This document shows positions 26,062-34,336 of a stretch of 64,000 nt of DNA, piece by piece. A model generated the notes under the pieces. The model ran no database searches, was not told the origin of the DNA, and saw only the letters and a list, made by a program, of their open reading frames with translations. Both the position numbers and the translations under genes were made by a program. This DNA is from Nitrosospira briensis C-128 (GTDB lineage: Bacteria > Pseudomonadota > Gammaproteobacteria > Burkholderiales > Nitrosomonadaceae): positions 1,736,001 to 1,800,000 of the forward strand of contig NZ_CP012371.1 of the NCBI RefSeq assembly GCF_000619905.2. Reading direction: 5' to 3'. Each line of letters begins with the position of its first letter. Position 1 is the stretch's first letter.

Positions 26062-27198
<1,137 letters not shown>

Positions 27199-27202
27199 CC
27201 TG

Positions 27203-27238
27203 AAAGACCGGCTGAACCCAAGTTCAGCCGGTCTTTTT
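27203..27238 (+). terminator. 15-bp perfect hairpin between amoC and amoA
   Basis: AAAGACCGGCTGAAC (27203-27217) pairs perfectly with GTTCAGCCGGTCTTT (27222-27236) around a 4-base loop (CCAA), followed by two more T bases. It starts 5 bp after the amoC stop. It is a strong intrinsic terminator or processing stem. It would make amoC mRNA more abundant or stable than amoAB mRNA (inference). Confidence 0.9.
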
Positions 27239-27449
27239 GATTCGGCACCACCCGGACTCGAGGAACCCTGAGGAACCTTGGGCCGCCCTGCCGCCGCAAC
27301 CCGACAGCAGAGCGGCCCGCCGCTACCGCCGCTGCGGCGAACAAAGACCCAGCCCAAAAAAAACAAGCTGGGGCGGAAAGAGGACAAGCAGCACCAAGCA
27401 ACACGCAACAGCAACACATCATTCACGTATTAAGATCGTAGACATTTGA

Positions 27450-29536
<2,087 letters not shown>

Positions 29537-29579
29537 GCCGCATGGGACACAAGGCCTAGCCCCGTCCCGCAAGGCATTG

Positions 29580-29628
29580 ACACCGGTCCGCCGCCGTCGC
29601 CAGACGGAAAGGTGGATCGGTGTTTTTT
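29580..29628 (+). terminator. Terminator after amoB
   Basis: ACACCGGTCC (29580-29589) pairs with GGATCGGTGT (29614-29623), ten pairs with one G-T, enclosing a smaller GC-rich stem and followed by a T run. It lies 44 bp after the amoB stop and separates amoCAB from amoE. amoE therefore likely depends on readthrough or its own promoter in 29629-29790. Confidence 0.8.
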
Positions 29629-29790
29629 ATGCAGCATAAAAATAGTAGAATTAGCAAAGCAGCATCGGCATGACGACAGCCCACAGGCCTCCCGCCCGCG
29701 GACGAACGGCAAGCCCGCCCAAGTGGCGATTAGCTGAAACAGTGGATCCTGTAACTTCGTAACAACGAACAACGCGGAGAGAACCCGTTT

Positions 29791-30357
29791 GTGATTAGGC
29801 AAGTAACACAGGCAATGCTCATCCTGACCGCGGCGCTCTATGCCGGCGCGGCAGGCGCGCACGGAAAAGTCTCGCTGGAAGAAGACAGCTGCGTGCGCCG
29901 CATTGGCGAGAACATGGTGCACTTAAGCGCCTACCAGCCGCAATTTGAGCCCAGCGCCCAATACTGCACCGAAATCCCCAAGAGCGGAGACACCTACTTG
30001 GTAGTCGACCTGATCGACCCGGCCCTGCGCGAAATGCCCATCGGCATGCGCGTCGTCAGAGGCACCAGCGAAACCGACGACGAGACCGTAAGCTACCTGC
30101 GGCCAAGCTACCACCCCGACGGCGTGATCAAGGGCGAGACCAGCCTGGACCAGGGCCTCTATACCATCATCATCACCGCCGAAGGCCTGCCTCCCCTGCG
30201 CTACCAGTACCCCTTGCGGGTACAGATGATCAACTACGCGAACATATTCCGCACCGCGGTCGGGCCGCTGATCGCCCTGCTGCTTTTGATCCTGCTGGGA
30301 TACAAGCTCATGAAATCCAAGCGCATGCAGCGCTGGCGTGCCTCGCGCCGCCCGTAG
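29791..30357 (+). CDS. amoE: PmoD/AmoD-family protein, first copy (orf4, AmoE)
   Basis: This 188-residue protein has a signal peptide ending near GAAGA, a periplasmic domain and one C-terminal membrane helix (about 152-172) with a basic tail. It belongs to the PmoD/AmoD family found only with ammonia or methane monooxygenase clusters and linked to copper handling. Conserved points shared with the next gene are the HG after cleavage, an acidic-x-C pair, YQP, and C-x-(D/E)-IP. The start is GTG 29791, with GGAGAG about 10 bases upstream. The function in nitrifiers is not proven. Confidence 0.9.
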   Translation: MIRQVTQAMLILTAALYAGAAGAHGKVSLEEDSCVRRIGENMVHLSAYQPQFEPSAQYCTEIPKSGDTYLVVDLIDPALREMPIGMRVVRGTSETDDETVSYLRPSYHPDGVIKGETSLDQGLYTIIITAEGLPPLRYQYPLRVQMINYANIFRTAVGPLIALLLLILLGYKLMKSKRMQRWRASRRP

Positions 30358-30481
30358 ACCACGAAAACGACAAAACGAAACGAAACAAAGACAACCCGGA
30401 CAACCCGGGCAGCCCCGGCGGCAACCTGAGTATCGGGCCGTAGGATCGACGATTCATCATTTCTTATAGGTGACCTTGATA

Positions 30482-31063
30482 ATGTCCTTACCCTCTCTCA
30501 AACCCGCCCTCCTGGGCCTGATGCTGGGCCTGGCCCTGCCGCTGTCCACCCAAGTGCACGCCCACGGCGGACTCTCCCTGGCCGACGACATCTGCAAACT
30601 CACCATCGGCCCCTATACCATGCACTTTACCGGCTACCAGCCGGAAAGCACCCAGGAGAAAGAATTCTGCGAAGACATCCCGGCCGTCGGCCGCACCGTC
30701 GTCGCCCTCGACTACATTGAAGAAGCGTTGCGGCCCCTGCCCACCGAAGTGCGCATCATCCGCGATACCGGTGCGGCCGCAGGCGCGGAGGGAAACCTGG
30801 ACGCCATCACCCTGCTGCATATCCCGGCCAAGGTCTACCCCAACGGCTCCATCAACTTCGAATACGACTTTCACCAGCCCGGCAAATTCGTAGGCCTGGT
30901 CACCGTCGCCGGCAAGGAGGAGTACGTCTCGCGCTTCCCCTTCTCCGTGGGCGAACCCAAAGGCACCTCGCCCTATCTCATCGGCGCCATCGCCGTCATT
31001 GTGGTCGGTGCCGGCGTCTTCTTCCTGCGCGGGCGTAAATCCACCACTGCCGGTGCCGCCTGA
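30482..31063 (+). CDS. amoD: PmoD/AmoD-family protein, second copy (orf5, AmoD)
   Basis: This 193-residue protein has the same plan as the preceding gene: signal peptide ending in VHA, mature start HGGLSLADDIC, YQPES, FCEDIP, one C-terminal membrane helix (YLIGAIAVIVVGAGVFF) and a short basic tail. ATG 30482 is chosen because AGGTGA lies 8 bases before it; an in-frame GTG at 30470 is less likely. PmoD homologues form a copper site at a membrane-anchored dimer in methanotrophs, so a copper delivery role is plausible (family inference). Confidence 0.92.
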   Translation: MSLPSLKPALLGLMLGLALPLSTQVHAHGGLSLADDICKLTIGPYTMHFTGYQPESTQEKEFCEDIPAVGRTVVALDYIEEALRPLPTEVRIIRDTGAAAGAEGNLDAITLLHIPAKVYPNGSINFEYDFHQPGKFVGLVTVAGKEEYVSRFPFSVGEPKGTSPYLIGAIAVIVVGAGVFFLRGRKSTTAGAA

Positions 31064-31259
31064 GAAGCAGCCAACCGGCGGCATGACCATGACCGGCGGC
31101 GATTGCCGCCGGGGCAGCGCCCGAACCAAACCGCAGCCATACAGTCCAAGTAACAGGTTCAGATAACAATAATATGGTCCGGATAAAAAGCCAAAAAAGA
31201 CAGAAAAGATCAATCTGCCCACCCACCCTCGTGGCGTGGCACACGAAGAGGAGCCAAGA

Positions 31260-31670
31260 ATGCAATCGATCATGATTTCCTCCCTCAAACAGGTCATGAT
31301 GGGCAGTATCCTGCTCATGGCACTGGGGGCAGGGCTGCACAGCACCCCCGTCCTGGCGCACGCCATGCTGGTCAAGGCCGAACCGCCGCGCCGGGCGCAG
31401 CTCACCCAGACCCCCACGCAGGTACGGCTCTGGTTCAACGAAGAAATCGAAAAGGACTATGCCTCGCTTACCGTGCTGGACGCAGCCAAGGCTCCGGTCA
31501 CCGACATCCGGCCGCACATCGCCGAGGACGACCGCAGAGCCATCGTATTGCCCTTGTCGCAACTCGCGCCCGGCAAATACACGGTAAAGTTCCGGGTGCT
31601 GTCGGTGGACGGCCACGTGGTTGACTCGTCCTACGACTTCACCGTAAAGAGCAAAACACCCGCCAAATGA
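31260..31670 (+). CDS. copC: Periplasmic copper-binding protein CopC
   Basis: CopC binds Cu(II) in the periplasm. The 136-residue precursor has a signal peptide ending in PVLA, so the mature protein starts HAMLVKAEPP with the His that coordinates Cu(II) through its N-terminus. The second part of the site, SVDGH in VLSVDGHVVDSS, supplies Asp and His. ATG 31260 has GAGGAG 6 bases upstream; an earlier GTG in frame (31236) is not needed. It overlaps copD by 4 bp (ATGA). Confidence 0.95.
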   Translation: MQSIMISSLKQVMMGSILLMALGAGLHSTPVLAHAMLVKAEPPRRAQLTQTPTQVRLWFNEEIEKDYASLTVLDAAKAPVTDIRPHIAEDDRRAIVLPLSQLAPGKYTVKFRVLSVDGHVVDSSYDFTVKSKTPAK

Positions 31671-33754
31671 TCGAGGTCATCGCGACGCTGCTGCGCTGGT
31701 CACAGCTTGCGTCCAACATGATCCTGGTCGGAAGCTGCGTCTTCCTGGCCATTGCCGGCTCCATCCATTCCCCCTGGGTGGGCCGCCTGGAGCGGGCGCT
31801 GCCTTGGCTTGCGCTCATCCTCCTGGCCGGTTTGATGGGCATCCTCGCCACCACCACGGCCCAGGCCACCGGCATCGACGCCAACGCCTGGCATCCGCAG
31901 GCCTGGCTCGCACTCGTGCAGAATACCCACATGGGACACGTCTGGGCAGGACGCGCCGCCTGCGCCGCGCTCGTCTGCGCCATCGCCCTCTATATCCGCG
32001 TCTCCCCCCCGGCAAGATGGCAATACATCCTGTGCGCCACCGTCGCTTCCGCCACCTTGACCGTGGGCGCACTCGCCAGCCATGCCGCCGCCGAAGACCT
32101 GTCCTTCCTGTCCGTATTGCCCTACGCCTTGCACATCATCATGGCCAGCGTCTGGTTCGGCGCCCTGCCGGCCTTCCTGGTAGTCTGTTTCAGTTGCACC
32201 GAAGTGCCGCCCGGGCAGGAAAGCGGCGGGCGCGCCGGCATCCAGACAGCCGCCATCCAGCGCATCCACGCCGTGTTCCACGCGCGCGAAGCGTCGGCCA
32301 CAGCCGACGCGCTCGCCTTGAAGCGCTTCTCCACCATGGCCCTGCCGGTCATGCTGACGGTGATCGCCACCGGCATCTTCATTACCTACCGCATGGTCGA
32401 CAGCAGCTACAGCGCCCTGGTCGCCACCGAATACGGCTGGCTGCTCAACGGCAAGATCGCCCTGCTGCTGGTGGTGCTCGTCATCGCTGCGCGCGCGCGC
32501 AGCTGGCTGCCGCTGCTGGCCCAGCACGCCGATGGCCTGGCCGCGGCCGGTGGGCACCGGCTGCGCAAGTGGGTCAGCTTCGAATTCGTCATCGCGCTGG
32601 GCATCGTACTGCTGGCCACCATCGTGGCCAATACCGTTCCGGCCAAGCACGCCATCATCCAGAACTGGCCCTACTCCTTCCGCTTCTCCCTGGCCGCCAC
32701 CTGGGGCGATCCGAGCGTGATGCTGCGCGTCTGGAGCGGCCTGGCGCTGCTGGCCGCCGCCGGCGCGGCGATCGCGTTCGGGCGTAGCCGAAAGTGGGAC
32801 ATGAAGCGCCGCCTGGGCATTCCGCTCCTGCTGGCTGCCGTGGCTCTGGGCGTGGGCCTGCCGCCCCTGGCGGTGGACGCCTACCCGGAAACCTACCGCA
32901 AGACGCCGGTGCCGTTCGATACCATTTCCATCGCCAACGGCTCGGCCCACTTTGCCGAGAACTGCGTGCCCTGCCACGGCGCCCAGGGCAAGGGCAACGG
33001 CGTGATGGCCAAGAGCTTCGCCAAGCCGCCGGTGGACATGCTCACCGAGCCGCACACCGCCAAGCATACCGCCGGCGACTTCTTCCACTGGCTCTCCTTC
33101 GGCATTCCCGGCACCGGCATGCCCGAATTCGCCGACAGGCTCTCGGAGGAGGACCGCTGGGACGTGGTCAATTTCCTGCACGCCATGTCGCGCGGCTACC
33201 AGGCACGCCTGATGAGCCCGCAGGTCAAGCCGGAACAGCCGCAGCCCGGCATGGGCCCGCCCAATTTCTCCTATACCGCGCAGGATGGTTCCAGCGGTAC
33301 CCTGAAGGATTTCCGCGGCAAGAAGAATGTGCTGCTGGTGCTGTTCTCGTGGCCGCAGTCGCGTGAGCGGCTGGCGCAGCTGCGCGATTTCGATGCCAGG
33401 CTGGCCGCGGCCAATACGGTGTTGCTGGTGGTGCCGGAGGATGACCCGGATTCGCACGAGCTGGAGCAGATCAAGGATAATGTGTCCTTACCGCTGGTGA
33501 TCGACGGCGCGCACGAGATCGTGCAGAGCTATAAGCTGTTTCGGCGTACGTTGAACAAGGCTGATCTGCTGGGGGAGGGCACGCTGCCGCCGCACATGGA
33601 GTTCCTGGTGGACCGCTTCGGTTATCTGCGTGCGCGCTGGATTCCGGATGCGGATGGCCCGGGCTGGTCCAGCACCGATATGCTGATGCAGCAGGTCGCT
33701 CAGCTTAATCGGGAAAAGGAAATATTGCCTCCGCCGGGGGATCATGTGCATTGA
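31667..33754 (+). CDS. copD: CopD copper-transport domain fused to cytochrome c and thioredoxin-like domains
   Basis: The 695-residue protein has three parts. Residues 1-400 have about eight to nine membrane helices and match CopD, the inner-membrane copper importer that partners CopC. Residues about 415-510 are a class I cytochrome c: C433-V-P-C436-H437 heme site and a GTGMPEF Met ligand region. Residues about 525-690 have a thioredoxin/AhpC-like fold (PPNFSYTAQDG, DFRGKKNVLLVLFSWPQS) ending in HMEFLVDRFGYLRARW. The usual Cys pair is absent: the sequence reads WPQS. Plain CopD is about 300 residues, so this is a fusion. A role in redox-coupled copper uptake for AMO is inferred. Confidence 0.93.
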   Translation: MIEVIATLLRWSQLASNMILVGSCVFLAIAGSIHSPWVGRLERALPWLALILLAGLMGILATTTAQATGIDANAWHPQAWLALVQNTHMGHVWAGRAACAALVCAIALYIRVSPPARWQYILCATVASATLTVGALASHAAAEDLSFLSVLPYALHIIMASVWFGALPAFLVVCFSCTEVPPGQESGGRAGIQTAAIQRIHAVFHAREASATADALALKRFSTMALPVMLTVIATGIFITYRMVDSSYSALVATEYGWLLNGKIALLLVVLVIAARARSWLPLLAQHADGLAAAGGHRLRKWVSFEFVIALGIVLLATIVANTVPAKHAIIQNWPYSFRFSLAATWGDPSVMLRVWSGLALLAAAGAAIAFGRSRKWDMKRRLGIPLLLAAVALGVGLPPLAVDAYPETYRKTPVPFDTISIANGSAHFAENCVPCHGAQGKGNGVMAKSFAKPPVDMLTEPHTAKHTAGDFFHWLSFGIPGTGMPEFADRLSEEDRWDVVNFLHAMSRGYQARLMSPQVKPEQPQPGMGPPNFSYTAQDGSSGTLKDFRGKKNVLLVLFSWPQSRERLAQLRDFDARLAAANTVLLVVPEDDPDSHELEQIKDNVSLPLVIDGAHEIVQSYKLFRRTLNKADLLGEGTLPPHMEFLVDRFGYLRARWIPDADGPGWSSTDMLMQQVAQLNREKEILPPPGDHVH

Positions 33755-33853: not shown

Positions 33854-34336
33854 ATGATTAAATCGATGGCCACGGTCTTGATTAGTGCTGCGTTGGTCGT
33901 GTCAGCGCCCGCGTCAGCGCATACCGAAGAGCATTTCGACGCCATTGATACGCCACACGGGGGCCAGATGCGTATGGCAGGTCCCTATCATCTGGAGCTT
34001 GTTGCACAAGAGAAAGACATCGTCATCTACGTAACGGATCATGGGGATAATAAAGTCAGCACCGACGGTGGGGTGGGTAAAGCAAGTTTTCAGGTAGGCA
34101 AGGCCAAGCCCAAGGATTCGATAAAACTGGAACCTGCAGGGGATAACATTCTCAAGGGCACCGGAGATTTCAAGCTCACGCCCGAAACCACGATCGTCGT
34201 GTTCGTCAAATTACCGGACCAGGAACCGCAATCAACCCGTTTTACTCCGCTCAAGCCCAAGGCGTCCCAAAAAGCCCCGGAAAAAAAGCCTGCAGGATCC
34301 TCCAGTGGGCATGAGCATCATCACATGCACCATTGA
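33854..34336 (+). CDS. Periplasmic metal-binding-like protein with His-rich tail
   Basis: This 160-residue protein has a signal peptide ending in ASA, then HTEEHFDAIDTPHGGQ and YHLELVAQEKDIVIYVTDHG. That stretch resembles the small metal-binding domain seen at the start of some cation-efflux adaptor proteins (HGG...YH-ELV...IYV-D). The C-terminus is Lys/Pro-rich and ends with a His cluster, GHEHHHMHH. AAGGAG lies just before ATG 33854. It lies 100 bp after copD in the same direction, so it probably works with the amo/cop copper genes as a buffer or chaperone (inference). I cannot name a family with certainty. Confidence 0.8.
   Translation: MIKSMATVLISAALVVSAPASAHTEEHFDAIDTPHGGQMRMAGPYHLELVAQEKDIVIYVTDHGDNKVSTDGGVGKASFQVGKAKPKDSIKLEPAGDNILKGTGDFKLTPETTIVVFVKLPDQEPQSTRFTPLKPKASQKAPEKKPAGSSSGHEHHHMHH

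Follow-up and report, generated by a model that had tools for sequence, protein, structure and literature searches.

A CopD-cytochrome c-thioredoxin-like fusion protein encoded beside copper membrane monooxygenase genes of ammonia and methane oxidizers

Downstream of the ammonia monooxygenase (AMO) genes of Nitrosospira briensis C-128 lies a gene whose product joins a CopD membrane part, a cytochrome c domain and a thioredoxin-like domain in one polypeptide. The gene was analyzed within a stretch of 64,000 nucleotides (contig NZ_CP012371.1, positions 1,736,001 to 1,800,000 of the forward strand; this whole stretch is called the window below) of a complete, single-contig genome of 3.21 Mb. The link of the fusion is with copper membrane monooxygenases (CuMMO) rather than with nitrification, and its architecture is found in betaproteobacterial ammonia-oxidizing bacteria (beta-AOB), in comammox Nitrospira, in some gammaproteobacteria and in alphaproteobacteria that carry a pmoCAB-pmoD-copC-copD-PCuAC operon. 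Its relatives recur beside the CuMMO genes of ammonia and methane oxidizers, where their task is probably the handling of copper for the monooxygenase. With the fusion as query, the copD genes retrieved beside amo or pmo encode three-domain proteins with a heme c motif, not plain transporters. Such a gene is called CopD, or a copper transport or resistance protein, in four papers (PMC6189053; PMC13374858; PMC5960693; PMC7558416; here and below, a citation refers to the accessible parts of a paper), and those parts mention neither a heme nor a thioredoxin-like part; the papers on archaeal CopC/D fusions (PMC7785015) and on Bacillus subtilis YcnJ (PMC13344008) deal with other CopD proteins. No description of the fusion was found in a search of titles and abstract openings, with most subscription journals outside its scope. 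The fusion is apparently an overlooked architecture of a known gene, with sequences that are already public, and it bears on the route by which AMO and particulate methane monooxygenase (pMMO) acquire copper and on the redox state of that copper, both of which are unsettled.

The original prediction, made from the sequence of the window alone, was that CopD, a heme c domain (C433-x2-C436-H437) and a thioredoxin/AhpC-type domain without the redox Cys form one polypeptide, and the open reading frame (ORF), the Pfam matches and the sequence agree on this. The CopD match (PF05425) covers residues 217-318 (E = 8e-19; 68.4 bits against a gathering score of 32.1), the Cytochrom_C match residues 422-507 (E = 9e-16, above the curated cut-off) and the AhpC-TSA match residues 532-655 (E = 2e-9; 37.9 bits against a cut-off of 26). 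The NCBIfam CopD equivalog NF033808 was not reached by the window protein (90.6 bits; cut-off 195). As in class I cytochromes c, a CxxCH motif is followed by a presumed axial Met (Met485), and heme is presumably attached. No Cys occurs downstream of residue 436, and the last domain, being without any Cys, has neither the CxxC motif of ResA/TlpA nor the CxxxC of Sco. An active peroxidase or thiol oxidoreductase is ruled out for the AOB form, because this domain has no Cys and Ser565 stands at the position of the AhpE Cys. An assembly or frame artefact as the source of the fusion is ruled out by a second, identical copy in the genome and by conservation across phyla. The predicted position after amoCAB, amoED and copC was also borne out, the order being amoC, amoA, amoB, an amoE/amoD-like pair and copC, and the start codon of the fusion overlaps the copC stop as ATGA. 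The accompanying statement that CopD is normally the membrane part only is not strict, since YcnJ is a CopC-CopD-YtkA protein (PMC13344008). In 11 loci where the match is to CopD only, the longest ORFs spanning it showed no CxxCH; for three further matches of this kind there was no locus.

The fusion is conserved among nitrifiers. In a scan of contigs from named genomes, the best 80 of 91 fusion loci are titled Nitrosospira, Nitrosovibrio, Nitrosomonas or Nitrospira(ceae), apart from a few in otherwise labelled metagenome-assembled genomes (MAGs). One copy in an Actinomycetota-labelled MAG (L108) equals that of Nitrosomonas europaea in length and in identity to the query, and is probably a binning error. 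In the family Nitrosomonadaceae, 113 of 125 genomes have a match at E ≤ 1e-10, 110 of them at E ≤ 1e-118; the three weaker matches are perhaps broken by contig ends. Among 115 loci, a homologous protein is found in 111 (some being the same gene twice), each with exactly one CxxCH, and the remaining 4 are weaker matches of the window genome itself. Removal of two window-protein copies and of two truncated sequences left an alignment of 108 sequences including the query, or 69 at <93% identity. The heme motif, Met485, H139, H156, H328, H463, S565 and H643 are invariant across the 69 AOB/comammox sequences, none of which has a Cys beyond residue 520. CxxCH, H156, H328 and H463 are kept in all 83 aligned AOB, comammox, gamma and short sequences and in all 23 alpha forms, which were counted separately; His643 is likewise kept in 83 of 83. 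Met485 is present in 69/69 AOB/comammox, 23/23 alpha, 6/6 short and 4/8 gamma sequences. An H-x-H forms the very end of the protein in 65 of the 69 AOB/comammox sequences (a contig end truncates one of the remaining four) and in 30 of 31 proteins that are more distant. The invariant His and the C-terminal H-x-H tail suggest a copper site. Pfam searches over 54 aligned members (E ≤ 0.001 for CopD) recovered CopD and cytochrome c in 54 and AhpC-TSA in 47. The gene order in beta-AOB is amoCAB-amoE-amoD-copC-fusion, and the usual order in comammox Nitrospira is amoE-amoD-amoD-copC-fusion, with amoC, A or B nearby in some loci while many contigs end there. Three Nitrosomonas loci (L059, L063 and L068), with 8 kb upstream covered, have copC-fusion without amo genes.

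To what extent the fusion follows the monooxygenase can be seen in wider samples. In a class sample of 369 genomes (E ≤ 1e-15 for the fusion and E ≤ 1e-10 for AmoA/PmoA), 15 genomes had any match and 4 the full fusion, i.e., the window genome, one of the same family, G649 and G518. AmoA/PmoA was found in 11 genomes, and the fusion is present in 4 of these 11 and in none of the 358 others. Because the fusion is confined to AmoA/PmoA genomes in this sample, we conclude that it is linked to CuMMO and not to nitrification. In G518, a divergent CuMMO operon lies directly upstream of copC and the fusion. The order of G649 (151 genomes) contains 15 genomes with any match and 7 with the full fusion, always adjoining copC; G649, the sole PmoA-searched genome among the 7, has two PmoA matches. 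In a phylum sample of 398 genomes, 5 matched at E ≤ 1e-25 and 3 had the full fusion, two of them already known from the other samples; the third, G990, shows pmoCAB-pmoD-copC-fusion-PCuAC. Within its family, 27 of 199 genomes match, 22 with the fusion (10 in g455, 8 in g545 and 4 in g543) and 5 with CopD only, and pmoD-copC-fusion-PCuAC is found in all 18 genomes of g455 and g545, with pmoCAB visible upstream in 10. Among the 175 genomes of the Nitrospira family, where a full-type fusion was counted at a best E ≤ 1e-50 and three short-only genomes were removed, 69 have the fusion and 61 have AmoA (both in 53, fusion only in 16, AmoA only in 8 and neither in 98; Fisher P = 7e-22, uncorrected for relatedness). 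Matches end early in G206, G211, G273 and G284 of this family and contain one internal stop in G269; G201, G221 and G243 have only the short paralog and G242 has a partial CopD match. Like a CuMMO-operon accessory, the fusion is encoded with amo/pmo genes in several lineages, with exceptions. The hint of nitrifier specificity in the original prediction did not stand, as the fusion also occurs in alphaproteobacterial pmo-type operons and in gammaproteobacteria with CuMMO genes, and these occurrences rule out a nitrifier-only trait. A fusion common in non-nitrifiers with unrelated context had been named as the finding that would speak against the prediction; this was borne out only by half, since non-nitrifiers do have the fusion, but often in the same CuMMO context.

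The lineages differ in the thioredoxin-like part. Alpha forms have H139, H156, H328, H463, CxxCH and Met485 in 23 of 23, but 21 of the 23 have at least 2 Cys in the thioredoxin-like part, and a gamma form (L151) has two. The description of the last domain as Cys-less is thus lineage-dependent, being true, as judged from the sequences, of the AOB, comammox, short and G649-order forms. Conservation of Ser565 does not extend to the gamma and alpha forms. The short Nitrospira paralogs (L127-L132) are about 540 aa long and begin near residue 154, so that they consist of half a CopD, the heme and the thioredoxin-like domain; they keep H156, H328, the heme motif, S565 and H643 in 6 of 6 and have a Met/His-rich tail at the end. 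This tail swap may be taken as a hint of copper binding. One of them (L129) has an amoC match nearby, and the others are without matches to operon genes nearby. In a midpoint-rooted tree of 46 selected proteins, the alpha group and the short group are each set off by a strongly supported branch, and the comammox and short copies group together inside the beta-AOB copies. From the nesting of the comammox copies inside the beta-AOB copies, the fusion appears to travel with amo, and this fits a transfer in which the fusion moved as part of the amo cluster.

AlphaFold2 (AF2) gave a mean predicted local distance difference test (pLDDT) of 70 for the whole protein, with ten membrane helices mostly at 70-96 and the cytochrome domain in the 30s to 50s; because of the latter, the domain geometry from AF2 was left out of the argument. 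With our own helix borders, the loops contain 8 Lys/Arg on the presumed inner side and 4 on the outer, 2 of the latter within the 25 residues after the last helix. This bias predicts that the N-terminus, the heme domain and the C-terminal domain face the periplasm. In a fold search with residues 1-328 (window 31667-32650), CydA of cytochrome bd took ranks 1-10 (Z = 18.9-21.2, 278-300 residues aligned, root-mean-square deviation 3.3-3.8), and lower matches included subunit C of alternative complex III (ActC, Z up to 15.6) and PsrC (13.4). Below a Z of about 13, helical bundles may share a mere common arrangement, and 19-21 is above that. Foldseek, however, listed only thioredoxin-fold or related chains among its top 50. 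The likeness to CydA is one of predicted fold; hhalign against one CydA sequence gave no significant sequence relation (probability 0.6%). The CydA sequence contains an FVHT motif, presumably in the fifth helix and with its His as a ligand, and in the fusion H156 is located close to where the fifth helix begins. HemJ/UPF0093 gave one weak match (E = 0.017) in 1 of 7 CopD parts. As a side observation, the likeness of this predicted fold to CydA may be relevant to CopD proteins at large. The last domain alone was predicted with a pLDDT of 79 and a fold of ResA/TlpA and AhpE type (Z up to 14.7; AhpE entries 13.3-13.7). AhpE is its best sequence relative among solved structures, and the profile of the domain aligns Ser565 with a Cys of AhpE that we take to be the peroxidatic one. 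The domain differs from the ResA/TlpA thiol reductases and the AhpE/Bcp peroxiredoxins, whose fold it is predicted to share, in having Ser565 at the AhpE Cys and, in the window protein, no Cys at all.

We tentatively read the fusion as a membrane-bound factor that, together with CopC, serves CuMMO in heme-coupled copper delivery and redox chemistry, and we hold this with somewhat less than even confidence. CopC, encoded by the overlapping upstream gene, would hand Cu(II) over at the periplasmic side of the CopD part; the cytochrome c tethered there would exchange an electron with the copper, most likely reducing Cu(II) to Cu(I); and the redox-dead thioredoxin-like domain would hold the copper via His643 and the C-terminal H-x-H tail and pass it to AmoD/AmoE or to AMO. 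Both the copper redox step with its direction of electron flow and the copper binding and delivery by the last domain are put forward as suggestions from sequence and context. Sco copper chaperones, which combine a thioredoxin fold with a copper task, are proposed as an analogy for the last domain, which differs from them in having no CxxxC. No Sco chain occurs as a match of its own among the 50 rows of either fold list of the domain (4txo entries are TlpA-Sco complexes), an absence that proves nothing. Cu(II) is bound by CopC and presumably taken over by CopD (PMC13344008). Among known systems, YcnJ is also a CopD with extracytoplasmic domains and supports copper oxidases, but it has CopC fused in and a YtkA domain; when copper is low, oxidase function depends on its CopD His and on the Cu(II) site of its CopC, and the YtkA domain at its C-terminus contributes to Cta (PMC13344008). 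YcnJ is not known to have an associated reductase, and the need for a local cupric reductase has been discussed (PMC13344008); a heme c carried by CopD itself could fill that role. Possible roles named for the neighboring PmoD are the loading of copper and the supply of electrons (PMC6189053). The idea of copper- or redox-linked loading of AMO, put forward in the original prediction, remains reasonable, because the fusion is conserved and amo-linked and has conserved redox and potential metal sites, but its link to nitrifiers is not exclusive. In proteomes, CopD accounts for 0.02% in N. europaea and 0.03% in N. multiformis, and CopC for 0.18% and 0.70%, with 0.093% in N. ureae (PMC5960693); these CopD entries would be the fusion, to judge from loci such as that of N. 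europaea (L110). The low abundance of CopD in AOB argues for a catalytic or assembly (maturation) role and against a stoichiometric subunit.

Several observations weigh against this reading. The fusion was not found in 7 of the 11 AmoA/PmoA genomes of the class sample at E ≤ 1e-15, in 12 of the 125 Nitrosomonadaceae genomes at E ≤ 1e-10, or, as full type, in 8 of the 61 AmoA-bearing Nitrospira genomes (one of the 8 has a short form); it is therefore not obligatory, or it is sometimes unassembled. Conversely, of the 16 Nitrospira genomes with the fusion but without AmoA, 6 have AmoB and in 10 neither was found; pmoCAB is not visible in the fetched stretches of 7 gamma loci of the G649 order, and the 4 g543 loci show copC-fusion with no complete pmoCAB within the fetched stretch, one of them (L196) having amoC-like and amoD-like matches a few kb away. 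As every locus was found with the fusion as query, a plain CopD beside amo/pmo would be missed. The putative copper and heme ligands also vary: in alpha forms, His is at 645 in 19 of 23, at 643 in 3 and at neither in L197; L199 ends in HSQH instead of H-x-H; and in 4 of 8 gamma forms (L135, L155, L156 and L157), Met485 is replaced by Phe/Tyr with His next to it, as seen by eye. CopD was undetected in the N. ureae proteome (PMC5960693), and a copCD mutant of M. trichosporium OB3b was reported not to be critical for copper uptake or the copper switch (PMC7558416). If the OB3b CopD is of the fusion type, the latter result is against simple bulk uptake. With a heme domain and a copper-binding-like domain fused to CopD, copCD mutants and the limitation of nitrification by copper might be interpreted differently.

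The alternatives differ in where copper and electrons would go. An ordinary CopD importer, with extra domains that only tether or regulate and with copper bound for the cytoplasm, seems rather unlikely to us. It would agree with the Pfam CopD match in 54/54 aligned members, with the coupled copC and with the import model for CopD and YcnJ (PMC7558416; PMC13344008), and the fusion does resemble CopD/PcoD/YebZ (PF05425) in its Pfam match, in the copC directly upstream and in conserved His on the predicted periplasmic side. It differs from these in two more helices, the cytochrome c and the thioredoxin-fold domain. Against the importer, the invariant CxxCH and the set of His would be left without an explanation, no clear defect in uptake was seen in the OB3b copCD mutant (PMC7558416), and the short Nitrospira paralogs keep only the second CopD half with the heme and the thioredoxin-like domain, so that the C-terminal module can manage without a full CopD. 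The CydA-like predicted fold leaves open a path from quinol through heme to copper, in which the membrane domain, with a possible heme b or quinol site of its own near H156 and H328, would feed the heme c, CopC-delivered Cu(II) would be reduced, and the His-tailed domain would insert Cu(I) into AMO/pMMO; we consider this elaboration unlikely.

The same fold (Z = 18.9-21.2, with ActC and PsrC lower) and the operon position could instead be taken for an electron-transfer subunit that supplies the monooxygenase itself with quinol electrons by way of the membrane part and heme c. That is quite improbable, given the 0.6% hhalign probability, the lack of the fusion in 7 of 11 CuMMO genomes of the class sample, and the scarcity of CopD, at 0.02-0.03% of the proteome and undetected in N. 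ureae, while ammonia-oxidation proteins are listed among the most abundant (PMC5960693). A periplasmic cuprous oxidase or copper-stress device, in which heme c takes electrons from Cu(I) into the chain and protects the cell near AMO, would accord with the place of CopD in copper resistance operons (PMC7558416) and with the cytochrome c/FTR1 permeases, which by annotation have a similar permease-plus-cytochrome layout and match weakly within residues 405-607, but whose permease is for iron. The linkage to amo/pmo genes in many loci speaks against such a device, and so do plasmids, where resistance genes might be expected: matches occur in 44 of 72,556 records, and not one of them covers 80% or more of the fusion protein. 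We regard it as a distinctly unlikely explanation.

Table 1. Position in the window, strand and basis of assignment of the fusion gene, its parts and the neighboring genes
Feature	Position	Strand	Basis or remark
amoC	26389-27198	+	NCBIfam AmoC_BACT over cut-off
amoA	27462-28286	+	NCBIfam AmoA_BACT over cut-off
amoB	28283-29536	+	NCBIfam AmoB_BACT over cut-off
amoE-like gene	29791-30357	+	Named from position and amoD similarity; 30% identical to next gene
amoD-like gene	30470-31063	+	Position, relatives
copC, periplasmic copper protein	31260-31670	+	Pfam CopC, E = 7e-23
CopD-cytochrome c-thioredoxin-like fusion gene	31667-33754	+	ORF, ATG to TGA, 695 aa
CopD membrane part, residues 1-345, 8 predicted helices	31667-32701	+	Pfam, AF2, alignment
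Two further predicted membrane helices, within residues 346-400	32702-32866	+	AF2 helices 349-375 and 379-397; loop charge bias
Cytochrome c domain, residues 422-507	32930-33187	+	Pfam
Heme c motif C433-V-P-C436-H437	32963-32977	+	Sequence and alignment
Met485, presumed axial heme ligand	33119-33121	+	Alignment
Thioredoxin-fold domain (predicted), residues 524-686	33236-33724	+	AF2 mean pLDDT 79; ResA/TlpA/AhpE fold
Ser565, aligned with Cys of AhpE	33359-33361	+	Profile alignment
His643	33593-33595	+	Alignment
C-terminal tail PPPGDHVH with H-x-H	33725-33751	+	Sequence and relatives
Small His-rich protein, presumably secreted, accompanies fusion in some loci	33854-34336	+	160 aa

The window genome has three amoA genes, and two of the copies extend through to the fusion. 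The block at 26308-33754 is 99.99% identical over 7,447 bp to G000:C1:2354221-2361667; it begins upstream of amoC and ends exactly at the stop codon of the fusion, and the protein of the second fusion copy (G000:C1:2359580) is 100% identical. The third amo copy matches over 3,392 bp, amoCAB only, and amoED-copC-fusion was not found in the fetched stretch around it. The nearest named relative of the window protein is that of Nitrosospira sp. Nsp11 (92% identity). The amoE-like gene has no Pfam or NCBIfam match above cut-off; it and the amoD-like gene were placed in the PmoD/AmoD family as described (PMC6189053). The small His-rich protein downstream of the fusion, for which Pfam gave no match above cut-off, has counterparts downstream of the fusion in 19 of the 80 named loci and near copC in four gamma loci, and it is likely an unrecognized partner of the fusion. 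On a Burkholderia multivorans plasmid, an ORF unannotated in PLSDB (L166:3104-4831) contains a cytochrome c and, C-terminally, a part with weak similarity to the thioredoxin domain of the fusion; no CopD-like ORF was seen beside it by eye, and no domain search was run there. An antisense ORF of 585 aa (31700-33457, minus strand) spans the fusion in the window and is presumably a by-product of high GC.

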